Shown here in pieces: positions 15,960-62,797 of a DNA stretch of 64,000 nt. The notes under the pieces are model-generated. The model saw nothing but the letters and a program-made list of their open reading frames with translations, did not search any database and was not told the origin of the DNA. A program made the translations under genes and the position numbers. Source of the DNA: Maribacter spongiicola (GTDB lineage: Bacteria > Bacteroidota > Bacteroidia > Flavobacteriales > Flavobacteriaceae); the NCBI RefSeq assembly GCF_004364165.1, contig NZ_SOAY01000012.1:248001-312000 (forward strand), read 5' to 3'. Within the stretch, counting starts at the first letter, position 1; each line of letters begins with the position of its first letter.

Positions 15960-16032
15960 GGTGCCTTAGCTCAGTTGGTAGAGCAATGGACTGAAAATCC
16001 ATGTGTCCCTGGTTCGATTCCTGGAGGCACCA
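15960..16032 (+). tRNA. tRNA-Phe (anticodon GAA)
   Basis: A 73-base cloverleaf: acceptor GGTGCCT (15960-15966) pairs with AGGCACC (16025-16031), discriminator A at 16032. The anticodon loop CTGAAAA gives anticodon GAA. The T loop is TTCGATT. The 3' CCA is not encoded. Confidence 0.97.
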
Positions 16033-50132: not shown

Positions 50133-50915
50133 ATGCAAAACATCAAAATTCAAGGTATAAACTGGGACGCCAAGTCCTCTTTTCAACAAGGTCCGGCGAA
50201 GGCTCCTAACTTAATCAGAAAAGCACTGTACAGCGATTCGATGAACCTATGTACCGAATTCGGGGTATCAATTGAAAACGATGCGGTAACCGATAAAGGT
50301 GATTTCAACATAAATGAGTATTTTGACATTACTGATATTACGAGAAAGAATATTGAATCTGGTGCTAAACTACTTTCATTAGGTGGTGATCATTCGGTTA
50401 CCTTCCCCATTATAAAAGCCTTACATGAGCATTACCCAAAACTAGATATTCTACATATCGATGCCCATGCAGATCTGTATCATGATTATGAAGGCGACCC
50501 TTATTCTCACGCATGCCCTTTTGCACGTATTATGGAAAACGGTTTCGCCGTAAAATTGGTTCAAGTTGGGATAAGAACTCTGAATCCGCATCAGGCTGCA
50601 CAAGCAAAAAAGTATAATGTAGACGTTCATGAAATGCGGAACCTTGACCTAAATAACATTCCGAAATTTGAGAACCCGTTGTATATTTCTTTAGATATGG
50701 ACGGCTTTGACCCTGCCTTTGCACCGGGAGTTTCTCATCTTGAGCCAGGCGGACTCACATCGCGTCAAGTTTTAGATTTAATTCATAGTATTGATACCGA
50801 AGTAGTAGGTGCGGATATCGTTGAATATAACCCTGATCGCGATTTTCATGACATGACCGCTTATTTGGCGGCAAAAATGATGAAAGAACTTATCGGTAAA
50901 ATGATGGAACGTTAA
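50133..50915 (+). CDS. Ureohydrolase (agmatinase/arginase family)
   Basis: 260 residues. Binuclear manganese site motifs: LGGDHSVTFPI, HIDAHADLYHDYEG and SLDMDGFDPAFAPGVSH. It hydrolyses agmatine, arginine or a related guanidino compound to release urea; length and motifs favour agmatinase-like, but the substrate is not certain. It lies 1.6 kb before the arginine operon, so arginine breakdown and synthesis genes are neighbours. Confidence 0.88.
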   Translation: MQNIKIQGINWDAKSSFQQGPAKAPNLIRKALYSDSMNLCTEFGVSIENDAVTDKGDFNINEYFDITDITRKNIESGAKLLSLGGDHSVTFPIIKALHEHYPKLDILHIDAHADLYHDYEGDPYSHACPFARIMENGFAVKLVQVGIRTLNPHQAAQAKKYNVDVHEMRNLDLNNIPKFENPLYISLDMDGFDPAFAPGVSHLEPGGLTSRQVLDLIHSIDTEVVGADIVEYNPDRDFHDMTAYLAAKMMKELIGKMMER

Positions 50916-50969: not shown

Positions 50970-52313
50970 ATGCCGTTTTCCTTTAAAAATTTTATGAAAC
51001 TCCACAGGGTTTCCTTGATATTGGCGGTATTGAGTGTTGTATTCTATTACACCTTTGCATATCACTTGCAGCGAACAGATTTCATAAAGCTGCTAACACT
51101 CTTTGTTGCACTTTTCTTTTTCTGTTTTAAACTTATACAGTTCGAAAAACTCAACTTTAGATTTCTACTTGGTATAGGAATCATTTTTAGACTCATTTTT
51201 CTATGTGCAGAACCTAATCTTTCTCAAGATTTTTATCGTTTTATTTGGGACGGTCATTTGGTATCTAGTGGTGCCAACCCCTATTTACACACCCCAGACC
51301 AATTAATGGAAAACATGGTATCTATGATACCGAATGCCAACACTCTTTATGAAGGTATGGGCAGTTTAAGTGCACGCCACTATAGTAATTACCCACCTTT
51401 AAATCAGCTGTTATTCGCCCTAGCAGCGCTTATCGGCGGCAAAAGTATGTTCGGCTCGTTAGTAGTTATGAGGGCGATAATTATTCTTGCCGATATTGGT
51501 ATATTTTATTTCGGCAGAAAACTGCTAAAAAACCTAAACAGATCTCCGCATTTAATATTCTGGTACTTTTTAAATCCGCTTGTAATTGTAGAGCTTACCG
51601 GTAATCTTCATTTCGAAGGGGTTATGCTATTTTTCTTCATCCTATCCATGTTTCTATTATCTATTGATAAATGGAAAACTGCAGGTGTGATTATGGCATG
51701 CTCGATTTCAATAAAACTGGTACCGCTATTATTCTTACCACTTTTCTTTAAGTACTTAGGATGGAAAAAAAGTATCATTTTCTATGCTATCATCGGCATA
51801 ACGTCTATTTTTCTTTTTCTACCATTTAATACTCCCGAGTTTATTGATAACTATTCCAAAACCTTAAAGCTTTGGTTCTCAAATTTTGAATTCAATGCTA
51901 GCATCTATAATATCGCTAAAAAAACTGCCATACATTTTGATGCAAAACCGTGGGAGTTCATTAAAGAATATGGCAAAATTACACCGCTACTAACCATAGT
52001 CACTGTAAGTCTATTTACATTTTTACCAAAAAGATATGACTTAAACAGAGTGCTTTGGTCTATGATGTGGGTTTTGACTATTTATTACTTTATGTCTACT
52101 ACCGTGCACCCTTGGTATGGCATATTTCTAGTTCTGCTTTCTGTTTTTACTACGTATAGATATGCTATCATTTGGTCTGCAGCCATTATATTGAGCTACT
52201 TCGCTTATTCTCAGGCAGATTTTAAAGAAAACCTATGGCTTCTTGCCATTGAATATATTGCAGTGTACGGTTTCATTATTTACGAAATTGTTGCACATAA
52301 TAACAAAAAGTGA
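50970..52313 (+). CDS. Polytopic membrane glycosyltransferase (GT87/mannosyltransferase-like)
   Basis: 447 residues with about ten transmembrane helices. An early loop with conserved acidic/aromatic residues (FYRFIWDGHLVSSGANPYLH) is typical of GT-C polyprenyl-phosphate sugar transferases of the GT87/DUF2029 type. Likely transfers a lipid-linked mannose or arabinose-like sugar outside the membrane. The start could instead be the ATG at 50994. Confidence 0.75.
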   Translation: MPFSFKNFMKLHRVSLILAVLSVVFYYTFAYHLQRTDFIKLLTLFVALFFFCFKLIQFEKLNFRFLLGIGIIFRLIFLCAEPNLSQDFYRFIWDGHLVSSGANPYLHTPDQLMENMVSMIPNANTLYEGMGSLSARHYSNYPPLNQLLFALAALIGGKSMFGSLVVMRAIIILADIGIFYFGRKLLKNLNRSPHLIFWYFLNPLVIVELTGNLHFEGVMLFFFILSMFLLSIDKWKTAGVIMACSISIKLVPLLFLPLFFKYLGWKKSIIFYAIIGITSIFLFLPFNTPEFIDNYSKTLKLWFSNFEFNASIYNIAKKTAIHFDAKPWEFIKEYGKITPLLTIVTVSLFTFLPKRYDLNRVLWSMMWVLTIYYFMSTTVHPWYGIFLVLLSVFTTYRYAIIWSAAIILSYFAYSQADFKENLWLLAIEYIAVYGFIIYEIVAHNNKK

Positions 52314-52335
52314 GGTTTTTGTAAAAATTATACTC

Positions 52336-52362
52336 TTGGGGATGTCAAATAAATATAATTTG
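52336..52362 (+). promoter_or_regulatory. Candidate promoter of the arg/pro leader and operon
   Basis: TTG at 52336-52338 and a TATAATTTG near-match to TAnnTTTG at 52354-52362; spacing is a little short (15 bp). Transcription would start near 52370, just before the leader ATG at 52378. Confidence 0.45.
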
Positions 52363-52377
52363 TACATTTACCCTATA

Positions 52378-52464
52378 ATGAACGAAGAAATCTACTTTTT
52401 ATATAGTACCGTGAGCCCAGTTGCTCTTGCGCGTCCGTTCACATCTCGCCGTCGTCGCCCGTAA
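52378..52464 (+). CDS. Arg/Pro-rich leader peptide of the arginine/proline operon
   Basis: A 28-codon ORF, too short for ordinary calling. Arg at residue 19 and four in a row at 24-27 (CGC CGT CGT CGC), Pro at 14, 20 and 28; the final RRRRP sits directly before the stop. It opens about 70 bp upstream of the first gene of an operon that makes both arginine and proline. This is the arrangement of attenuation leader peptides (trp, his, leu). A T7 run lies at 52521-52527; I cannot confirm a terminator hairpin by eye. Confidence 0.7.
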   Translation: MNEEIYFLYSTVSPVALARPFTSRRRRP

Positions 52465-52549
52465 GGGTAAGATATAATTATGGAATTAGGTGAGTCCATT
52501 TCCGCACAGCAAATCAAAACTTTTTTTACACTTTTAAATCTATCTGGCA

Positions 52550-53179
52550 ATGAACTTAATTGTTGCTAACGAATCACATTTTAAATACGCTCAGGATATC
52601 TGCGATACCATAGCTGAATCTGCTAAAGTTCGTGGAACCGGTATTGCAAAACGTACCCCTGAATATATTCAAAGAAAACTATCTAACGGCAATGCTATTT
52701 TAGCTTTGGACGGAGATAAATTTGCAGGCTTCTGCTACATTGAAGTTTGGGGGCACGAGAAATTTGTTGCCAACTCCGGACTCATAGTTCACCCAGATTA
52801 CAGAGGTCAGGGACTTGCGAAAAGCATAAAAGCCAAGATTTTTGAACTTAGTAGACAGAAATTTCCAGATGCTAAAATATTTGGAATTACCACAGGCTTA
52901 GCTGTTATGAAAATTAACTACGAGCTTGGTTACAAACCTGTTACGTTTTCAGAACTAACCGATGATCCAGAATTTTGGAAAGGTTGTCAAACTTGTAAGA
53001 ACTTCGACATTCTTACTAGAACAGAGCAAAAAATGTGCTTATGCACAGGCATGCTATACGATGGCAACAATAAGAAAAAAACTGAGGAAATTAAACCGGT
53101 AAATAGCAAAGCTTTTACAAGATTAAAAAGCATTAAAGAGAGTTTGTTTCTTAAAAAGAAAGAAGAAAATAAAAGTTAG
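52550..53179 (+). CDS. GNAT acetyltransferase heading the arg operon (candidate N-acetylglutamate synthase)
   Basis: 209 residues. GNAT fold: GIAKRTPEYIQRKLSNG, LIVHPDYRGQGLAKSIK (acetyl-CoA loop RGQGLA) and MKINYELGYKP. A C-terminal cysteine cluster CQTCKN...CLC suggests a zinc site or redox switch. No ArgA or ArgJ is seen in the window, so this is a candidate for the N-acylglutamate synthase step (inference from position). Confidence 0.82.
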   Translation: MNLIVANESHFKYAQDICDTIAESAKVRGTGIAKRTPEYIQRKLSNGNAILALDGDKFAGFCYIEVWGHEKFVANSGLIVHPDYRGQGLAKSIKAKIFELSRQKFPDAKIFGITTGLAVMKINYELGYKPVTFSELTDDPEFWKGCQTCKNFDILTRTEQKMCLCTGMLYDGNNKKKTEEIKPVNSKAFTRLKSIKESLFLKKKEENKS

Positions 53180-53180
53180 C

Positions 53181-53257
53181 GTATAGAGTATAGAGTATAG
53201 AGTATAGAGTATAGAGTATAGAGTATAGAGTATAGAGTATAGAGTATAGAGTATAGA
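53181..53257 (+). repeat. Heptamer tandem repeat, 11 x GTATAGA
   Basis: Eleven perfect GTATAGA units starting 1 bp after the GNAT stop codon, followed by AAAATTAAAAAAAA. Same period and same tail as the GTTAGGA blocks. TAG falls in all three frames. A 68-bp pyrimidine-rich stretch (53291-53358) follows before argG. Confidence 0.97.
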
Positions 53258-53404
53258 AAATTAAAAAAAATGAACTGGACAATGAAGGTTTTCAACATTC
53301 TTATCTCTTCTTTTTTCTAACATCTCTTCTCTAATTTCTATTATCTCTTTTCTTTCAAACTAAAACAATAATTACCCGTCATCACGGGATTTGAACATAT
53401 TACA

Positions 53405-54592
53405 ATGAAAAAATTAGTACTAGCATACAGTGGCGGATTAGATACCTCTTACTGTGCAAAACATTTATCAAAAGACAAAGGATTCGAAGTTCATGCCGTA
53501 AGTGTAAATACTGGCGGATTCTCATCTGACGAAATAAAAGAAATCGAGAAGAAAGCGATTGAGTTAGGTGCAACTTCGTATACTTCTATTGATGCCGTAC
53601 AGACATTTTATGACAAAGTAGTAAAATACCTAATATTCGGTAATGTACTAAAAAATAACACCTACCCGCTTTCGGTGAGCGCCGAACGTATTGTACAGGC
53701 AATCGAGATTGTTAACTACGCCAAAAAAGTAGGCGCTGGTTTCATCGCTCACGGTAGCACCGGTGCAGGTAACGATCAAGTACGTTTCGATATGATTTTT
53801 CAAATCATTGCACCAGAAATTGAAATCATCACCCCTATTAGAGATAATAAACTAGCAAGGGAGGAAGAGATTGCATACCTGAAAGAAAACGGAGTAGATT
53901 ACCCTTGGGAGAAAGCAAAATACTCTGTAAATAGAGGTCTTTGGGGAACATCGGTTGGTGGTGAAGAAACTTTGACTTCTGAAAAAGCATTGCCAGACAG
54001 TGCTTACCCAAGCCAGTTACAAGAAAAGAACCCAACCGATGTAAAACTTACTTTCGAAAAAGGTGAGTTGGTTGCTATCGACGGTAAAAAAGATAACCCA
54101 GTTGCAAATATTGAAAAGTTAGAGGCATTAGCTTCTAAGTATGCTATTGGCAGAGATATTCATGTTGGTGACACTATAATTGGTACTAAAGGTAGGGTTG
54201 GTTTTGAGGCTCCTGCATCATTAATTATTATAAAAGCACACCATTTGCTAGAAAAGCATACGCTTACAAAATGGCAGCAATATCAAAAAGAACAACAAGG
54301 TAATTTCTACGGAATGTTATTGCATGAGGGTAATTACCTAGATCCTGTAATGAGAAATATAGAAACTTTCTTGACAGACACACAAAAAATGGTTTCTGGT
54401 GATGTTTTCGTTGGCTTGTATCCTTTTCAGTTCAGGTTGCATGGCATTTCATCTAAACATGATTTAATGACCGATGCTTTCGGTAAATATGGTGAAGTAA
54501 ACAAAGGTTGGACGGCAGATGATGCGAAAGGATTTATTAAAATTCTATCAAATCCAGGAAAAATATATAACCATGTGAATGGTGATAATTAG
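53405..54592 (+). CDS. argG: Argininosuccinate synthase
   Basis: 395 residues; LVLAYSGGLDTSYCAKHL is the PP-loop ATPase motif, HGSTGAGNDQVRFDM the citrulline-aspartate site and ARE...DYPWEKAKYSVNRGLWG further family signatures. It condenses citrulline and aspartate with ATP to argininosuccinate. Confidence 0.96.
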   Translation: MKKLVLAYSGGLDTSYCAKHLSKDKGFEVHAVSVNTGGFSSDEIKEIEKKAIELGATSYTSIDAVQTFYDKVVKYLIFGNVLKNNTYPLSVSAERIVQAIEIVNYAKKVGAGFIAHGSTGAGNDQVRFDMIFQIIAPEIEIITPIRDNKLAREEEIAYLKENGVDYPWEKAKYSVNRGLWGTSVGGEETLTSEKALPDSAYPSQLQEKNPTDVKLTFEKGELVAIDGKKDNPVANIEKLEALASKYAIGRDIHVGDTIIGTKGRVGFEAPASLIIIKAHHLLEKHTLTKWQQYQKEQQGNFYGMLLHEGNYLDPVMRNIETFLTDTQKMVSGDVFVGLYPFQFRLHGISSKHDLMTDAFGKYGEVNKGWTADDAKGFIKILSNPGKIYNHVNGDN

Positions 54593-54594
54593 GG

Positions 54595-54650
54595 GTTAGG
54601 AATTAGGAGTTAGGAGTTAGGAGTTAGGAGTTAGGAGTTAGGAGTTAGGA
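54595..54650 (+). repeat. Heptamer tandem repeat, 8 units of GTTAGGA type
   Basis: GTTAGGA, ATTAGGA, then six perfect GTTAGGA units, starting 3 bp after the argG stop. Followed by AAAATG and the second repeat type. Confidence 0.97.
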
Positions 54651-54656
54651 AAATGT

Positions 54657-54783
54657 AGTATTAAGTAATGAGTACAAAGTATTAAGTAAAAAAGTTCAAG
54701 GCAAGCCTCTGAGCATTTAAATTTAGATTATTGAGTAAACCAAGTACTTCGTACTTATTACTTAATACTTCGTACTAATTACG
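54657..54783. repeat. Heptamer-period inverted repeat between argG and argC
   Basis: Left block (54657-54691) has 7-bp units AGTATTA, AGTAATG, AGTACAA, AGTATTA, AGTAAAA; right block (54745-54783) has TACTTCG, TACTTAT, TACTTAA, TACTTCG, TACTAAT. The two are roughly inverted and can pair across a ~55-bp middle. Confidence 0.85.
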
Positions 54784-54796
54784 AAAAAATAAAATT

Positions 54797-55771
54797 ATGA
54801 TTAAAGCAGGTATTATTGGTGGTTCTGGTTATACGGGCGGGGAGCTTATTCGAATTCTATTGAATCATCCGGCAACGGAAATAGATTTTGTTTTCAGTAC
54901 TACTAGAGCTGGCAAAAAGGTAACTACGGCGCATCCTGATTTACTAGGTACTACAGACCTTGAATTTACAGGTGATGTGAACCTAGATGTGAATGTGGTT
55001 TTTCTATGCTTAGGTCATGGTAATTCTACCGAATTTTTAAAAGAACATCATTTTTCTGAAGATACTGTTATCATTGATTTAAGCAATGACTTTAGATTAC
55101 ATGCCGATGCTGATTTTGATGGAAAACAGTTTGTATATGGATTACCAGAATTGAACAAAAGTGACATAGAAAATGCCCATTATATTGCCAACCCAGGTTG
55201 TTTTGCAACGGCTATTCAATTAGCACTGTTACCGCTGGCCAAGGCAAATCTATTAAAGAACGAAGTACATATTAATGCCGTAACCGGCAGTACAGGGGCA
55301 GGCGTTAGTCCGTCGCCTACTTCGCATTTTTCATGGAGAAATAATAATGTAAGCTGGTACAAGCCTTTTACCCATCAACATTTAGGTGAAATTAACGAGA
55401 GCCTACATTCACTTCAAGAAAATACGGGCAACTTATTTTTTATGCCGAATAGGGGGAATTTCACCCGCGGAATTTTAGCTACATCATATACCAAATTTGA
55501 TGGCAGCTTAGCCGATGCTAAGAAAATCTATCAGGAATTTTATAAGGATGCTGTTTTTACCCAAATTTCCGAAGAGCCTATTAATTTAAAGCAAGTAGTG
55601 AATACCAATCAGTGTCACATTCATCTACACAAACATGAAGATGTATTGCTGATTACTTCTGCCATTGATAATTTGTTGAAAGGAGCATCTGGACAAGCGG
55701 TACAGAACATGAATTTAATATTCGGATTAGAAGAAAATCTAGGTTTGAACCTAAAGGCAGGTGTCTTTTAG
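54797..55771 (+). CDS. argC: N-acetyl-gamma-glutamyl-phosphate reductase
   Basis: 324 residues: GIIGGSGYTGGELIRILLNH (NADPH Rossmann), VIDLSNDFRLH and the catalytic Cys in NPGCFATAIQLALLP. Reduces N-acyl-glutamyl phosphate to the semialdehyde, the third step of the pathway. Confidence 0.96.
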   Translation: MIKAGIIGGSGYTGGELIRILLNHPATEIDFVFSTTRAGKKVTTAHPDLLGTTDLEFTGDVNLDVNVVFLCLGHGNSTEFLKEHHFSEDTVIIDLSNDFRLHADADFDGKQFVYGLPELNKSDIENAHYIANPGCFATAIQLALLPLAKANLLKNEVHINAVTGSTGAGVSPSPTSHFSWRNNNVSWYKPFTHQHLGEINESLHSLQENTGNLFFMPNRGNFTRGILATSYTKFDGSLADAKKIYQEFYKDAVFTQISEEPINLKQVVNTNQCHIHLHKHEDVLLITSAIDNLLKGASGQAVQNMNLIFGLEENLGLNLKAGVF

Positions 55772-55820
55772 ATATAAAAATAAAAAGTGCTATGCATTTA
55801 GTACAAGTAAAAAATAAAAC

Positions 55821-56615
55821 ATGAAAATAGCAATCATAGGCGCAGGTAATTTAGGACTTTCCATTGCAAACGGAATTCTGAACAGTAACGGTGCCACCAC
55901 CATGTACCTTACTAAACGAGACACAAAATCTATTATCGATTTTGAGAAACACAATAAGGTGACTGTAACCAATGATAATCGTTTGGCTATACAAAATTCA
56001 GACATTCTAATATTTGCCGTCCAACCCGTTCATTTTGCCGCAATTCTAGAAGATGTAAAAGATTTACTTACTGAAAACCATGTTATTATTTCAACAATAA
56101 CCGGTTTTGGAATCGACAAAATAGAAGCGGTTATCGGCAAAGACAATTATATTGTTAGAAGCATGCCCAATACCGCTATTTCTGTTGGTAAATCTATGAC
56201 CTGTATCTGCAGTAATGAAAAAGGTAAAAAACGTATCGACCTAACAAAAGCTATCTTCAACAGAATGGGTCATTGTATGGAGATACCTGAGAATCAAATG
56301 CAAGCAGCAACCGTTATTTGCGCCAGTGGTATTGCCTTTTGGATGCGTTTAATTCGCGCTACAACACAAGGTGCCATTCAGTTAGGTTTTGATGCTCAAG
56401 AGGCGCAAGAATTAGCTATGCACACGTGCAACGGTGCAGCGAACTTACTTATTGAATCGGGCAATCATCCAGAACAAGAGATTGATCGAGTAACGACACC
56501 AATGGGATGCACTATTACGGGTCTAAACGAAATGGAACACCAAGGTTTAAGCTCATCATTAATACGTGGTATTATTGCCTCATACGATAAGATTACCGAA
56601 TTTAAAACGAAATAA
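55821..56615 (+). CDS. proC: Pyrroline-5-carboxylate reductase
   Basis: 264 residues: IAIIGAGNLGLSIANGIL (NAD(P)H Rossmann), IVRSMPNTAISVGKSMT and the C-terminal TPMGCTITGLNEMEHQGL. Last step of proline synthesis. In this operon it sits between argC and argD, so proline and arginine genes are mixed. Confidence 0.94.
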   Translation: MKIAIIGAGNLGLSIANGILNSNGATTMYLTKRDTKSIIDFEKHNKVTVTNDNRLAIQNSDILIFAVQPVHFAAILEDVKDLLTENHVIISTITGFGIDKIEAVIGKDNYIVRSMPNTAISVGKSMTCICSNEKGKKRIDLTKAIFNRMGHCMEIPENQMQAATVICASGIAFWMRLIRATTQGAIQLGFDAQEAQELAMHTCNGAANLLIESGNHPEQEIDRVTTPMGCTITGLNEMEHQGLSSSLIRGIIASYDKITEFKTK

Positions 56616-56662
56616 AATACCAGTGTACAATTAGTTCTTATAGAACTTGAATCTTTTGAATT

Positions 56663-57787
56663 ATGAAATTATTCGACGTTTACCCACTATATAATGTTAC
56701 ACCTGTTTCTGCAAAAGGTATTGTGGTTACGGATGACAAAGGTCAAGATTACTTAGATTTTTATGGCGGTCATGCCGTAATATCAATTGGTCATACGCAC
56801 CCACATTATGTAAAGCGCTTGAAAGATCAATTAGATAAAATCGGATTTTATAGCAATGCAGTTCAAAATCCGCTTCAAGAAGAGCTTGCTGAAAAACTAG
56901 GGGTTATTTCTGGTTGCGAGGCGTATAATCTGTTTATGTGTAACTCAGGCGCCGAAGCCAATGAAAATGCACTTAAAATGGCATCATTCGCCACCGGAAA
57001 ATCGAAAATAATTGCCTTCAACAACGGATTTCATGGTCGCACCTCTGCTGCTGTAGCGGCAACCGACAATCCGTCTATAAACGCAGAAATAAATCAACAA
57101 CATGAGGTCGTTTTTCTTGACCTGAACGATGCAAAGGGTTTTGAAAGGGAAATTTCTAAAAATGTATGTGCTGTAATCATAGAATCTATTCAAGGCGTTG
57201 GTGGATTAGATGAACCCAACACAGAATTTTTACATAAAGTAGCAGCATTATGTAAAGAAAATGATGCTTTATTGATTGCCGATGAAGTACAATGCGGATT
57301 TGGTAGAAGTGGTAAATTCTTTGGATTTCAACATCATAACATACAACCTGACATTATCAGTATTGCAAAAGGTATGGGTAACGGCTTCCCCGTTGGTGGT
57401 GTTCTTATTCATGAAGATATTAAAGCAAAATACGGAATGTTAGGTACCACTTTTGGCGGTAACCATTTAGCTTGCGTAGCCACATTGGCTGTTTTAGAAG
57501 TCATTGAGAAAGAGAACCTAATGGCAAATGCCGAAGAGCTGGGTATGTATTTCAATGAAAAGGCAAAAGAAATTCCGCAAGTAAAAAGAGTAAAAGGTAG
57601 GGGATTGATGTTGGGTCTAGAGTTCGATTTTCAGGTAGCTGATTTACGCAAAAAACTTATTTATGACCACCACCTTTTTACCGGAGGCGCAAAAGACAAA
57701 ACGGTACTTAGAATTTTACCGGCATTGAATATCACCAAACAAGATTTAGACGTGTTTTTCACAGCTCTTAAGACTGCTTTATCATGA
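56663..57787 (+). CDS. argD: N-acyl-ornithine aminotransferase
   Basis: 374 residues, class III PLP aminotransferase: FMCNSGAEANENALKMA, HGRTSAAVAATDN, LLIADEVQCGFGRSG and the PLP lysine in ISIAKGMGNGFPVGG. It makes N-acyl-ornithine from the semialdehyde. The stop overlaps proA by 4 bp (ATGA). Confidence 0.94.
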   Translation: MKLFDVYPLYNVTPVSAKGIVVTDDKGQDYLDFYGGHAVISIGHTHPHYVKRLKDQLDKIGFYSNAVQNPLQEELAEKLGVISGCEAYNLFMCNSGAEANENALKMASFATGKSKIIAFNNGFHGRTSAAVAATDNPSINAEINQQHEVVFLDLNDAKGFEREISKNVCAVIIESIQGVGGLDEPNTEFLHKVAALCKENDALLIADEVQCGFGRSGKFFGFQHHNIQPDIISIAKGMGNGFPVGGVLIHEDIKAKYGMLGTTFGGNHLACVATLAVLEVIEKENLMANAEELGMYFNEKAKEIPQVKRVKGRGLMLGLEFDFQVADLRKKLIYDHHLFTGGAKDKTVLRILPALNITKQDLDVFFTALKTALS

Positions 57788-58980
57788 TAAAAACGCTCGA
57801 CTTAGCAAAAAGAAATGCCGTATTAAAACGGATGGCAGAATTGGTTCTACAAGAAGAATCAATTTTAATGTCTGCCAATGAAAAAGATTTAAACTCTTTC
57901 GAATCTGATGATATCGCAATGATCGACCGCTTAAAGGTGGATAAAGATAAGGTTAGAGAAATGGTTTCTTCCTTGAAAAAATTAGCTGTATTAGCCGATC
58001 CGTTACATGTAGAACGTTTTCAATTTACCCATGATAACGGGCTAGAAATCAGCAATAAAACGGCTCCCTTCGGTACTATTATGATTATCTATGAATCTAG
58101 GCCAGATGTCACTATTGAAGCTGCCGGTATTGCTTTTAAATCTGGAAACAAAATTTTATTAAAGGGAGGCAAAGAATCATTGAACTCCAATTTGGTTTTA
58201 GTCAATTTATGGCATAAAGCTTTAGAGTCCTGTGACTGTTCTGAAGATTGGATTACCTATCTCAATTATTCGCGAGAAGAAACCCAACAGTTTCTTGAAA
58301 ATCCGACTCAAAAACTAGATTTAATTGTTCCGCGTGGTGGTGAAAAATTGATTGCTTTTGTAAAGCAACATGCGCAATGCCCTGTAATTGTAAGTGGTCG
58401 TGGAAACAACTTTGTATATGTTTCGCATGAAGCAAATCTGCAAATGGCTTTAGATATCATTGTCAATGCAAAGACCACAAAAATATCGGCGTGTAATGCT
58501 GTTGACAAAGTAATTATCTCAAGAGATTTACCACGTAAAATGGAGTTTCTAAATCATTTGATCAAAACCCTTAAAAAACACAATGTAGAAATTTTAACCG
58601 ATGCAAAACTAGCCGGATTAGAAGGCACTTCTCAGATGGAAGATGAATCTGTTTGGTTTGAAGAGTTTCTAGATTATAAAATTGTCATCGGGCAAGTGCC
58701 AGATGTTGAAGAGGCCATACAGCACATTAACACCTATGGTGGTGGTCACTCAGCTGCCATCATTACCAAAGACGAAGAAGAAGCTGAAATTTTTATGCAG
58801 TCCGTTGATACTGCGGCTGTGTATCATAACGCATCTACCCGTTTTACCGATGGTGGGCAATTTGGACTTGGTGGTGAATTAGCTATCAGTACCGATAAAT
58901 TACACCAGCGAGGCCCTATTGGGCTGCAACACCTCGTGACCAATAAGTGGTATGTAAAAGGGAATGGACAGATTAGATAG
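57784..58980 (+). CDS. proA: Glutamate-5-semialdehyde dehydrogenase
   Basis: 398 residues: MIIYESRPDVTIEAAGIAFK, KISACNAVDKV with the catalytic Cys, and ASTRFTDGGQFGLGGE. Reduces gamma-glutamyl phosphate to glutamate semialdehyde for proline. Overlaps argD by 4 bp; its TAG stop runs straight into a heptamer array. Confidence 0.95.
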   Translation: MIKTLDLAKRNAVLKRMAELVLQEESILMSANEKDLNSFESDDIAMIDRLKVDKDKVREMVSSLKKLAVLADPLHVERFQFTHDNGLEISNKTAPFGTIMIIYESRPDVTIEAAGIAFKSGNKILLKGGKESLNSNLVLVNLWHKALESCDCSEDWITYLNYSREETQQFLENPTQKLDLIVPRGGEKLIAFVKQHAQCPVIVSGRGNNFVYVSHEANLQMALDIIVNAKTTKISACNAVDKVIISRDLPRKMEFLNHLIKTLKKHNVEILTDAKLAGLEGTSQMEDESVWFEEFLDYKIVIGQVPDVEEAIQHINTYGGGHSAAIITKDEEEAEIFMQSVDTAAVYHNASTRFTDGGQFGLGGELAISTDKLHQRGPIGLQHLVTNKWYVKGNGQIR

Positions 58981-59049
58981 TTAGGAATTAGGAGTTAGGA
59001 GTTAGGAGTTAGGAGTTAGGAGTTAGGAGTTAGGAGTTAGGAGTTAGGA
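58980..59049 (+). repeat. Heptamer tandem repeat, 10 units of GTTAGGA type
   Basis: GTTAGGA, ATTAGGA, then eight perfect GTTAGGA units, the first base being the last base of the proA stop codon. Followed by AAAAATAAAA. TAG falls in all frames. Confidence 0.97.
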
Positions 59050-59084
59050 AAAATAAAAGCTTGACCTGACAAAATTGAATTAGA

Positions 59085-59852
59085 ATGCTGAAAAAGAGAA
59101 TTTTATTAAAATTAGGATCTAATACTTTAACGAAGGATACCGACCACATCTCTCGTGGTAAAATTGAAGATATTGGTAGGCAAATAGCAGCCTTAAAAGA
59201 TCAATATGAATTCATTATCGTGAGTTCTGGTGCTATTGCCGCAGCGAAACAATTTGTAAAACTGGAGCATAATGGTGAAGAAATCAATGTAAAACAAGCA
59301 TTGGCATCTATTGGTCAGCCACACTTAATGCGTATTTTTCAAGAGAATTTTAGAGAATTAGGCCTTTTTACATCACAGTGTTTACTATCGTATTCCGACT
59401 TTGAAAAAGAGCAAACTAGAGTGAATATTAAAAACACGATAAACGTTCTGGTCGCTAACAATTTCATTCCTATTATCAATGAAAATGATACTGTGGCCAC
59501 CGATGAAATTAAGTTTGGTGACAATGATAAATTAGCAGGTTTAACCGCGTCTCTTTTATCCGCAGATATACTAATAATAGCCACAAATACGGACGGTATC
59601 TATACCAAAGCATCGCTATCGTCGGCAAAACCTACCACTATCGAACAGGTGACCGACCTTAGTGAATTACAAAAAGAAATTGGGGAATCTAAATCGAGCC
59701 ATGGCACCGGCGGAATGCAGTCTAAGATAGATGCTGCAACTATCGCACAAAAAGCAGGGATTGAAACTTGGATCACCAATGGCTTAACCGATAATTTCAT
59801 TACCGACGCCATGAATAACAAAAGTACTTTTACAAAAATTAAAGCATCATGA
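59085..59852 (+). CDS. proB: Glutamate 5-kinase, short form without PUA domain
   Basis: 255 residues of the amino-acid-kinase fold: ILLKLGSNTLTKDTDHISRG, VSSGAIAAAKQFV, NENDTVATDEIKFGDND and GTGGMQSKIDAA. Phosphorylates glutamate, first step of proline synthesis. It lacks the C-terminal PUA domain of the E. coli enzyme (about 110 residues). Overlaps the next gene by 4 bp. Confidence 0.94.
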   Translation: MLKKRILLKLGSNTLTKDTDHISRGKIEDIGRQIAALKDQYEFIIVSSGAIAAAKQFVKLEHNGEEINVKQALASIGQPHLMRIFQENFRELGLFTSQCLLSYSDFEKEQTRVNIKNTINVLVANNFIPIINENDTVATDEIKFGDNDKLAGLTASLLSADILIIATNTDGIYTKASLSSAKPTTIEQVTDLSELQKEIGESKSSHGTGGMQSKIDAATIAQKAGIETWITNGLTDNFITDAMNNKSTFTKIKAS

Positions 59853-60790
59853 ATTACCTTTCCATAAACGATATCGACTCTTTATCTACCTGGGTAAAAG
59901 AAGCTATTGCATTAAAAAAACAACCTAAAAAATTTAAAACTTTAGGTAACGATAAAACCATAGGGCTCCTATTTTTCAACAACTCGCTTCGTACGCGTTT
60001 AAGCACTCAAAAAGCGGCCATGAATTTAGGTATGGAAGTTATTGTCATGAACTTTGGCAGTGAAGGTTGGGCTTTAGAATATGTCGATGGCACTATTATG
60101 GATCAAGGCACCTCTGAGCATATAAAAGAAGCTGCACAGGTAATTTCTCAGTATTGCGATATCATAGCCATACGTGCATTTGCAGGCTTGGTTGACAAAG
60201 AATTAGATGAAGCAGAAGAAGTTTTAAACGGATTTAAAACCTATGCTTCTGTACCTATCGTAAATATGGAGAGCTCAGTTGGGCACCCCTTACAGGCACT
60301 AACCGATGCCATTACTTTAGAAGAACATAATTTTAAGAATAACCCAAAAGTAGTTTTGTCATGGGCGCCACACCCAAGGGCTTTACCGCACGCGGTTGCC
60401 AATTCATTTATACAGATGATGCAAAAGCAGAATGCTGAATTTGTAATTACGCATCCTGAGGGTTATGAGCTAGATCCTAACATTACTAAAGATTCTAAAA
60501 TTGAATACAATCAAGAAAAGGCTTTAGAAAATGCCGATTTTGTGTATGTGAAAAACTGGAGTAGCTATACCGATTATGGTCAAATAAAATCACAAGATCC
60601 TAATTGGCAAATGACCCTTAAGAAATTAGGAAAAGCTAAGTTTATGCACTGCCTTCCTGTACGTAGAAATGTTGTAGTTGCCGACGAAGTTTTAGATAGT
60701 GAGCAATCTTTGGTTATTGAACAAGCGAATAACAGAACGTATGCCGCTCAATTGGTTCTAAAGAAAATACTGGAAAGCAATGAAAATTAG
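59849..60790 (+). CDS. argF': N-acyl-ornithine carbamoyltransferase (acetyl or succinyl)
   Basis: 313 residues. NNSLRTRLSTQKAAMNLG replaces the STRTR carbamoyl-phosphate site of ordinary ornithine carbamoyltransferase, as in the N-acetyl/N-succinyl-ornithine enzymes of Bacteroidota and Xanthomonas. ESSVGHPLQALTDAIT and HCLPVRRNVVVADEVLD complete the family. It makes N-acyl-citrulline; which acyl group is not decided here. Confidence 0.9.
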   Translation: MNYLSINDIDSLSTWVKEAIALKKQPKKFKTLGNDKTIGLLFFNNSLRTRLSTQKAAMNLGMEVIVMNFGSEGWALEYVDGTIMDQGTSEHIKEAAQVISQYCDIIAIRAFAGLVDKELDEAEEVLNGFKTYASVPIVNMESSVGHPLQALTDAITLEEHNFKNNPKVVLSWAPHPRALPHAVANSFIQMMQKQNAEFVITHPEGYELDPNITKDSKIEYNQEKALENADFVYVKNWSSYTDYGQIKSQDPNWQMTLKKLGKAKFMHCLPVRRNVVVADEVLDSEQSLVIEQANNRTYAAQLVLKKILESNEN

Positions 60791-60962
60791 TAAATGGATT
60801 TATATTGGTATCGCACTTTTTGCACTCATTTTATTTGTGGCAAATATGGTCGATATCGACCATAGCACCGCACATTGGAAAACCTATATGGGACCCGTTA
60901 GTAACATAATTCTTATTGTTGCCATGGTTCTCATGTTCAAATTTTCTGAAAATGAAAAATAA
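60780..60962 (+). CDS. Small two-helix membrane protein inside the arg operon
   Basis: 60 residues with two hydrophobic helices (about 5-23 and 40-54) joined by a short polar loop (DIDHSTAHWK). Overlaps argF' by 11 bp and argB by 11 bp, so it is tightly packed into the operon. No family recognised. Confidence 0.65.
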   Translation: MKISKWIYIGIALFALILFVANMVDIDHSTAHWKTYMGPVSNIILIVAMVLMFKFSENEK

Positions 60963-61731
60963 ACTAAGCGTAGTAAAAATTGGCGGTAATGTCATTGAAG
61001 ATGAAAAGGCTCTAGCTATTTTTCTTACTGCATTTGCCAAACTAGAAGGATTAAAAATATTAGTTCATGGTGGTGGTAAATTAGCTACTCAACTCGCAAC
61101 TAAGTTAGGTATTGAATCTAAAATGATAGACGGTAGGCGTATTACCGATGCTGAAACTGTCGATATTATTACCATGGTTTATGGCGGCTTGGCAAACAAG
61201 AAAATCGTTGCCCAGCTTCAAGCAAAAAATATAAATGCAATTGGTTTAAGTGGTGCCGATGGTGATAGCATACAGGCACACAAAAGACCTGTAAAAGAAA
61301 TTGATTACGGATTCGTAGGTGATATTGATGGTGTAAATTCTGATTTAATTAGCAATCTTTTATCCATCAACCTTACTCCTATTTTTTGTGCATTATCGCA
61401 CGATGGCGCAGGGCAATTACTGAATACGAATGCAGATACCATTGCTTCTGAAATTGCAATTGGTATGGCATCAACCTATGAAACTACTCTTTATTACTGC
61501 TTTGAAAAAAAGGGTGTTTTACTAGATATTTCCGATGATAATAGTGTTGTAAAAAATATCAATACAGACACATATAAAGAGCTATTATCAGAAGGGGTAA
61601 TAGCTGACGGCATGTTGCCTAAACTCCATAATTGCTTTCATGCCTTGAACAATACTGTTGAAAAAGTATGTTTGGGAGATGTAACTATGTTAGGTAAAAA
61701 CACCGAACTGTTCACTACGTTAACCTTATAA
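60952..61731 (+). CDS. argB: N-acyl-glutamate kinase
   Basis: 259 residues from the ATG at 60952; a start at 60916 would add 12 residues unlike the family. LSVVKIGGNVIEDEKAL, LVHGGGKLATQL and LNTNADTIASEIAIGM are amino-acid-kinase motifs. Phosphorylates N-acetyl- (or N-succinyl-) glutamate, the second step of the arginine pathway. Confidence 0.93.
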   Translation: MKNKLSVVKIGGNVIEDEKALAIFLTAFAKLEGLKILVHGGGKLATQLATKLGIESKMIDGRRITDAETVDIITMVYGGLANKKIVAQLQAKNINAIGLSGADGDSIQAHKRPVKEIDYGFVGDIDGVNSDLISNLLSINLTPIFCALSHDGAGQLLNTNADTIASEIAIGMASTYETTLYYCFEKKGVLLDISDDNSVVKNINTDTYKELLSEGVIADGMLPKLHNCFHALNNTVEKVCLGDVTMLGKNTELFTTLTL

Positions 61732-61732
61732 T

Positions 61733-62797
61733 ATGAATCAAACAGAACTTACAGAAAGTGCCATGGATTTATTAAAAGAACTGATTTCAATAGAATCATT
61801 TTCTAAGGAAGAAGACAAAACTGCAGATGCAATACAAGTGTGGCTGGCAAAATATAACATACCTACAGAAAGGGATCTGAACAATGTTATAGCGAAAAAT
61901 AAATTTTGGGACGATAGTAAACCAACCCTTCTTTTAAACTCGCATCACGATACTGTAAAGCCAAATACTGCCTATACAAAAGACCCTTTTTTGCCGCACA
62001 TAGAAGATGGTAAATTATTTGGGCTAGGGAGTAATGACGCAGGTGGACCTTTAGTTTCCCTTCTTGCAACTTTCGTGAATTATTACAATGATGAAAACCT
62101 CAACCATAATATTTTAATGGTCGCTTCTGCCGAAGAAGAAAATGCAGGTGAGAATAGCTTACGCGGATTGCTTCCTAAATTACCGCATATTGATGTAGCC
62201 ATAGTTGGCGAACCTACATTAATGCAACTTGCTATCGCCGAAAAAGGATTAGTTGTTTTTGATGCTGTAGTTAAGGGTACTCCCTCGCACGCAGCGCATC
62301 CTAATGAAGATAATTCCATTTACAATTCTATTAAAGTTTTAGAATGGTTTAAGAATTACAAGTTCAAAAAGTCATCTGAAGCTTTAGGAGATGTAAAAAT
62401 GACCGTTACACAAATTAGTGCTGGATCGCAACATAATGTGGTACCAGCACAGGTTGATATGGTAGTTGATGTCCGGGTGAACGATGCCTATAGCAACAAA
62501 GAAATTGCAGATTTACTGAAGAAGGATGCGCCATGCAAATTAAAGGAGCGATCTTTACGCCTGAATTCGTCGAAAATAGACAAAGACCATGAGTTAGTGA
62601 AATCTGGGATAGCATTAGGCAGAACGACTTACGGCTCTCCTACCCTTTCTGATCAAGCAGCGTTAAGTTGTCAGTCATTGAAACTAGGACCTGGAGACAG
62701 CACACGTTCGCACTCAGCAAATGAATTTATCTATGTTCATGAAATTGAAGAAGGTATAGATTTGTATATTAAAATAGTAAAAGGATTTATAAAATAG
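61733..62797 (+). CDS. argE: M20 metallo-hydrolase, ArgE-type deacylase
   Basis: 354 residues. M20 zinc motifs: LNSHHDTVKPN, FGLGSNDAGGP (metal Asp), ASAEEENAGENSL (catalytic Glu pair) and IVGEPTLMQL. Position after argB fits the N-acyl-citrulline/ornithine deacylase that follows an N-acyl-ornithine carbamoyltransferase. One base after the argB stop. Confidence 0.88.
   Translation: MNQTELTESAMDLLKELISIESFSKEEDKTADAIQVWLAKYNIPTERDLNNVIAKNKFWDDSKPTLLLNSHHDTVKPNTAYTKDPFLPHIEDGKLFGLGSNDAGGPLVSLLATFVNYYNDENLNHNILMVASAEEENAGENSLRGLLPKLPHIDVAIVGEPTLMQLAIAEKGLVVFDAVVKGTPSHAAHPNEDNSIYNSIKVLEWFKNYKFKKSSEALGDVKMTVTQISAGSQHNVVPAQVDMVVDVRVNDAYSNKEIADLLKKDAPCKLKERSLRLNSSKIDKDHELVKSGIALGRTTYGSPTLSDQAALSCQSLKLGPGDSTRSHSANEFIYVHEIEEGIDLYIKIVKGFIK

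Follow-up and report, generated by a model that had tools for sequence, protein, structure and literature searches.

A probable ribosome-mediated arginine attenuator upstream of the arginine/proline operon of Maribacter spongiicola, with relatives across Flavobacteriaceae

Bacterial arginine synthesis is the textbook case of control by a repressor. In the trp, his and leu attenuators a short ORF carrying codons for the regulated amino acid is located directly before the biosynthesis operon, together with hairpins in the leader, and the same arrangement is found in the leader described here; it differs from them in that the amino acid is arginine, that no intrinsic terminator or antiterminator was found, and that one hairpin (hp1) overlaps the Arg codons and is followed by a separate hairpin (hp2). 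Arrest peptides are also known, TnaC stalling termination with tryptophan and the fungal arginine attenuator peptide (AAP) with arginine. The present leaders resemble TnaC in the Arg-Pro-stop end, but 21 of 117 leaders do not end so. With the AAP (also treated in PMC13183943) they would share arginine as the signal. The Arg-codon leaders found in print control other genes (PMC6386406, PMC13009471). The orf34/speF leader of Salmonella has consecutive Arg codons (positions 12–13), as here, and ribosome pausing at low arginine combined with Rho, but it controls ornithine decarboxylase in gamma-proteobacteria and no arginine synthesis (PMC6386406). Arg codons in a leader peptide, through which arginine is sensed, are likewise a feature of rbfL in S. 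aureus, but stalling there hides the ribosome binding site of a biofilm regulator, so that its translation is repressed (PMC13009471). The carA gene of P. aeruginosa, which feeds arginine synthesis, is reportedly also preceded by a leader peptide, but the attenuation there is ascribed to pyrimidines, with arginine acting at the transcriptional level (PMC4997734). For Flavobacterium psychrophilum, a member of the same family, leader-peptide attenuation has been proposed before amino-acid operons, and section 19 of that paper counts pheA and hisG among the conserved 5' elements and names no arginine element (PMC9723704). We recognised no published report of the present element, a weak absence with most subscription papers and supplements out of reach, and the architecture with hp1 over the Arg codons and hp2 behind it was, with the same weakness, not found described in the literature searched.

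The DNA analysed, referred to as the window, is a stretch of 64,000 nucleotides of Maribacter spongiicola (contig NZ_SOAY01000012.1, positions 248,001 to 312,000, forward strand). The genome of this organism gave no match to the ArgR profile PF01316, which is found in 139 of 395 Bacteroidota genomes and in one of 199 Flavobacteriaceae genomes, there with a borderline 26.9 bits (G174). This near-absence is context and no proof of replacement, because the family is without ArgR with or without the leader. Leader-peptide attenuation is plausible in this organism because the same genome has, before hisG, a leader with His codons, MKNRTTHHHFHIHAQAR* (asterisk, stop; L282:1337-1390), and a strong hairpin (L282:1420-1455) of 13 bp and -18.2 kcal/mol with a T-rich 3' end. 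Judged from its sequence it is apparently a classical attenuator, and the arginine leader is unlike it with respect to this hairpin.

The operon starts with a GNAT acyltransferase gene (Table 1). By family and gene neighbourhood the product is probably the counterpart of BT3761 and a likely N-succinylglutamate synthase, and would probably be the first arginine enzyme. In the GapMind paper BT3761 of B. thetaiotaomicron is given as probably the N-succinylglutamate synthase, the enzyme with which the pathway begins in Bacteroidetes (PMC7311316). Of the genes that follow, argG, argC, proC, proA, proB and argB reach their NCBIfam cut-offs, and argD, the carbamoyltransferase and the ArgE/DapE-type deacylase match below theirs; the matches to both arg and pro genes bear out the combined arginine-proline cluster that the first-pass annotation had proposed. 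An argH-like frame, its identity read from the sequence by eye, runs past the window end. From strand and spacing the genes of the cluster are predicted to be co-transcribed. A TAGAGTA tandem array (window 53177-53257, 11.6 copies, 98% matches) extends from the end of the GNAT gene into the gap before argG, and a second, pyrimidine-rich repeat is located at 53303-53353. Two genes upstream of the operon, on the same strand, there is an arginase-family gene (PF00491, window 50133-50915).

Table 1. Features of the leader and the arginine/proline operon, in window coordinates.
Feature	Position	Strand	Basis
Putative promoter -7-like box TACATTTA (TAnnTTTG type)	52363..52370	+	alignment of 81 upstream regions
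Leader ORF, 28 codons, MNEEIYFLYSTVSPVALARPFTSRRRRP*	52378..52464	+	translation, conservation in relatives
hp0, hairpin inside the ORF, GAGC/GCTC	52413..52426	+	region scoring, 117 sequences
Four Arg codons CGC CGT CGT CGC (residues 24-27)	52447..52458	+	Arg-rich end in 117/117 members
hp1, GCCC-GTAA-GGGT, with the 5' arm within the final Arg and Pro codons and the stop in the loop	52457..52468	+	family alignments, hairpin scoring
hp2, stem GGAATT/ATTTCC (one mismatch), bulged A, inner GG/CC, pentaloop TGAGT	52482..52503	+	covariation, 91-117 sequences
First operon gene, GNAT acyltransferase	52550..53179	+	gene calls, domain search, cited paper
argG, argC, proC, argD, proA, proB, N-acyl-ornithine carbamoyltransferase, argB, ArgE/DapE-type deacylase	53405..62797	+	profile search

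The leader ORF translates with Arg at residues 19 and 24–27 and Pro at 14, 20 and 28, and its stop is separated by 85 nt from the GNAT start at 52550. The first-pass annotation had described a 28-codon ORF 85 bp before the first operon gene, with five Arg and three Pro at these residues and a run of seven T at 52521-52527, and it was right in each point. It had further described a repeat of GTGAG-CCCA at 52411 and a second GTGAG at 52491; the first is present and the second lies at 52490-52494, one base earlier, but the two do not constitute a repeat, since the second is part of the conserved loop of hp2 and the first, on inspection of the alignment by eye, shows no conservation. None of the 865 short ORFs of the window (15–45 aa, both strands) has at least four Arg in the last six residues. 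In this count every ORF begins at its most upstream start, so that the leader has 57 codons and is itself outside the 865. The leader is more than chance, because no short ORF of the window matches it and because its core is kept in 80 of 80 relatives.

The TACATTTA box ends 7 nt before the ATG of the leader ORF. It is of the TAnnTTTG type, the consensus of promoter -7-like boxes, and if the putative promoter acts as such, the leader ORF would be nearly leaderless. A TAnnTTT[GA] box is present upstream in 68 of 117 family members as a raw count, with 7 nt as the commonest distance to an in-frame start (24/68). A second possible ORF, from the ATG at 52480 (MELGESISAQ...), has similar frames in many relatives, and was taken as hp2 sequence and not as a gene because locus L072 has an extra base between ATG and loop with hp2 kept, and because many relatives have TTG at that place.

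In a search with the GNAT protein the best 80 of 569 relatives were kept. Each of them carries a short ORF that ends ...RP*, its stop 84–95 nt before the GNAT gene, as well as both motifs CCGTA[AG]GGGT and AGGTGnGTCC; in 75 of these 80 the hp2 stem follows the first motif at a distance of 13 or 14 nt. In alignments of the close relatives the TAnnTTTG-like box directly before the ATG is conserved and the Arg codons swap CGC for CGT, and gaps within the ORF, by eye, are mostly multiples of three. A covariance model, R1, built on 52 core sequences, matches 120 of 199 Flavobacteriaceae genomes (198 genera) at 122 places and gives no match in the other 79. In the fetched stretches a GNAT gene is found downstream at 117 of the 122, and these constitute the family in the counts below, the remaining five (L172, L237, L244, L249 and L276) being left out. 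L172 and L249 have an intact core with no GNAT gene in the stretch fetched, and in L018, which is the same place as L172, argG is found further downstream; L237, L244 and L276 are taken as chance matches. In the approximately 900 nt downstream of the intact core of L249 there is no GNAT match, and another frame is seen there by eye. The GNAT gene is itself absent from 8 of 27 genomes examined. R1 misses some members, as L152 and L147 display the same layout by eye in genomes with no R1 match, and the L147 element was later matched by a second model, R2 (genome G174).

Across Bacteroidota R1 matches 20 of 395 genomes, of which 15 are Flavobacteriaceae with GNAT downstream and five belong to other families with no arg genes within the flanks covered. 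R2 matches 31 of 296 genomes across the order, 22 in Flavobacteriaceae and 9 in other families; the latter give 10 weak places with no arg gene within the 1.3–1.4 kb fetched. Because the R1 and R2 matches elsewhere come without arg genes nearby, the element is, on these searches, confined to Flavobacteriaceae in the genome sets drawn. Conservation of the ORF frame and of the Arg run in relatives had been proposed as a check on the first reading, and both are kept across the family.

An open Arg-rich frame is found in all 117 leaders, with 2–7 Arg in the last 16 residues and a mean of 4.3 against 1.2 in the other frames, a contrast that is biased since, of the frames that stay open over 17 codons or more, the one with most Arg was chosen. 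The choice also required, where available, a stop at -40 to +40 relative to the hp2 loop; in that range 97 of the 117 leaders have it at -30 to -25. Over the last 12 positions the Arg codons are CGC 250, CGT 187, CGA 12, AGG 12, AGA 8 and CGG 1, so that CGC and CGT make up 437 of 470, compared with 36 of 110 in 13 genes of the window (AGA 46, CGT 25, AGG 14, CGC 11, CGA 9, CGG 5). The bias persists when the last Arg codon is left out (330 of 364, last 14 positions). That only the RNA is conserved, with the ORF a by-product of GC-rich CGN repeats, would agree with the hp1 core CGCCCGTA[AG]GGGT being nearly fixed as nucleotides in close relatives; it is nevertheless very improbable, as Arg survives changes among CGC, CGT, AGG and CGA and in the presence of different hp1 sequences, and all 117 leaders have a long frame whose stop keeps close to one position. 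Equally hard to credit is an action of the peptide itself, its Arg-rich end binding hp2 or another RNA. Binding of RNA hairpins by short Arg-rich peptides has precedents elsewhere, and hp2 is a bulged hairpin adjoining the ORF, but the Arg residues drift both in number (2 to 7 in the last 16 residues) and in spacing.

The 5' arm of hp1 contains an Arg codon in all 117 leaders, compared with 84 of 234 other frames, and at least one further Arg codon is located within 30 nt upstream in all 117. The position of hp1 is fixed, with its centre at -27.5 (sd 1.4) from the hp2 loop in the 117 sequences. Taken alone the hairpin beats shuffled sequences moderately (mean score 12.6 against 10.4, median p 0.2), and its stem is mostly invariant, with thin covariation (2 double changes in a 91-row alignment). 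Other stems occur at the same place, GCGCAC/GUGCGC in L271 and a different one in L241. The last Pro codon is spelled by the CCC of the hp1 arm, and becomes Thr in L215 and L271, where the arm has CAC, and Leu in L241; the other Pro residues in the last 16 are variable, and 16 of 117 leaders have none. Sensing of proline was therefore rejected: the last Pro is a product of hp1, even though proline genes share the operon. The signal would be arginine, not proline, and the suggestion that one peptide would sense both end products fails in its proline part.

Arg-Pro is located near the end in 112 of the 117 leaders (further from it in L219 and L236), and 96 end exactly Arg-Pro-stop. An alternative reading of this end is that free arginine would arrest the nascent ...RRRP peptide at Pro-stop, the stalled ribosome then shutting the operon. 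The stop codon lying in the hp1 loop in the window and close relatives would suit such an arrest, as would the likeness to TnaC, which also ends Arg-Pro. We consider it unlikely: 20 leaders read past this point (e.g. RRPLGV*, RRTFVRA*) and one more, L235, ends RRPA*, which is not what a conserved arrest end would give, the Pro follows the hp1 sequence, and across the family there is little conservation of the residues that precede the Arg run.

The downstream hairpin, hp2, covaries strongly. Its outer stem has at least 5 pairs in 112 of the 117 sequences, whereas 1000 shuffles of the 3' arms gave on average 50 such sequences and never more than 63, the count taking the best bulge of 0–3 nt in sequences and shuffles alike and being independent of the R1 fit. 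In the 91-row alignment, which consists of 90 family loci chosen by hand and the window, fitted to R1 in a way that favours the hp2 signal, 8 of 12 pairs change on both sides in 100 cells, compared with 4.1 and 17.5 in shuffles and with at most 5 pairs and 21 cells in slid structures. When all columns of the 91 rows are ranked by corrected mutual information, with no structure given, the six top pairs are all hp2 pairs and an hp1 pair is ninth. The inner pairs and the pentaloop are nearly invariant; with UGNG fixed by the anchoring pattern, the loop is UGAGU in 81, UGUGU in 24, UGCGU in 9 and something else in three of the 117, and UGNGY holds in 116. As a motif of other operons hp2 was rejected, its loop pattern having one other match in the genome, by eye inside apparent protein-coding sequence. 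A nearly invariant interior in a covarying stem is as expected for a hairpin that binds a ligand or a protein, and hp2 could thus be the sensor, to which a regulator protein or arginine itself would bind, the ORF having a secondary role in timing. This reading appears improbable, as it does not explain why the ORF is Arg-rich and conserved in frame or why Arg codons lie within hp1.

A third hairpin, hp0, is indicated by the scoring of its region in the 117 sequences (13.4 against 10.6 in shuffles, p<=0.05 in 26%), compared with an upstream control region (10.2 against 10.6, and 3%); relatives have different stems at a similar place. The predicted stability of all three hairpins is low (-4.4 to -6.1 kcal/mol), and single-sequence folding was uninformative, the window RNA being no better than its shuffles (z +1.38). 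A scan of the leader gave no intrinsic terminator, although the scan is insensitive and also misses the his leader hairpin. In the 115 sequences left when two with the GNAT gene more than 130 nt from the loop are removed, the U fraction after hp2 is 0.32 against 0.37 beyond, and the longest U run after hp2 is at most 3 nt in 97. Within the 80-column core, which excludes hp0 and the rest of the ORF, no competing helix covaries. Pairing of the hp1 arm with the hp2 loop was also rejected; the variable loop base can pair with its partner base in 39 of 91 rows, with no covariation. In model folds of the 115 sequences, leaving out the 5' arm of hp1 gives a mean hp2 probability of 0.63 versus 0.66 and an openness of the GNAT start of 0.465 versus 0.468; as modelled, the removal changes neither, and so offers no route by which a stall would be relayed. 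Rfam models matched nothing in the window at gathering score other than a tRNA at 15960, so that no T-box or other element is recognised, and a permissive scan of 52300-52600 gave three matches far below their gathering scores.

The attenuation reading of the first-pass annotation consequently stands as to a conserved Arg-codon ORF before an arginine operon, and is unsupported as to proline sensing and as to the terminator/antiterminator switch of the trp/his type, for which neither a terminator nor, in the core, a covarying alternative pairing was found. The mutually exclusive hairpins that it had suggested looking for by folding were not seen: hp1 and hp2 do not overlap, and the absence of alternative structures that would speak against it is in part what was observed. 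The leader appears to work like ribosome-mediated attenuation, but with no terminator/antiterminator pair as far as tested.

We regard the leader as quite likely a cis-acting, ribosome-mediated arginine attenuator, through which the arginine/proline operon would be controlled by sensing of arginine. Its parts, namely the ORF, the Arg codons, hp1 over them, hp2, hp0, their conservation and the place before the first arginine gene, are observed, and from these we infer the sensing, the direction of control and the off-step. The ribosome would start on the leader ORF near the 5' end of the RNA, and hp0 may pause RNA polymerase and let the ribosome catch up. When charged Arg-tRNA for CGC and CGT is scarce, the ribosome should stall in the Arg run. 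Because hp1 takes its 5' arm from the last Arg codons, a ribosome on them and hp1 are mutually exclusive; a stalled ribosome would thus keep hp1 from forming and the operon would be expressed. When arginine is plentiful the ribosome would clear the run and leave, hp1 would form beside hp2, and the operon would cease to be transcribed or expressed, with no intrinsic terminator involved. The likeliest off-step would be either termination by Rho on the RNA left untranslated or the action of a factor that binds hp2, and these are favoured because no intrinsic terminator was found and the hp1 arm had no effect in silico. A wider proposal, that a family-wide attenuator took over from ArgR, with hp1 gated by the ribosome and hp2 binding a protein or ligand and with no terminator/antiterminator switch, is offered tentatively and is rather doubtful as a whole. 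Most sampled genera of Flavobacteriaceae, in which ArgR is nearly absent, carry the RNA and peptide leader instead, and the attenuator gives a directly testable answer to how arginine is sensed in this family. As a strongly conserved hairpin hp2 is a candidate for the binding of a partner, and further small ORFs that have escaped annotation in Bacteroidota may be found by looking for this layout.

A different leader was observed in one genus, g127, probably Flavobacterium. Four of its GNAT-like loci (L154, L155, L158 and L159) are without it, and nine GNAT loci (L141-L146, L148, L150 and L151) have a conserved leader ORF that begins about 310–350 nt upstream, e.g. MNKTSSHLTSLSRTNRPSTSPEVRMLSL*. 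A TACTTTTG box is located 4–5 nt before the ATG of the MN... start, and a hairpin seen by eye contains the final Arg codon of this ORF together with its stop.
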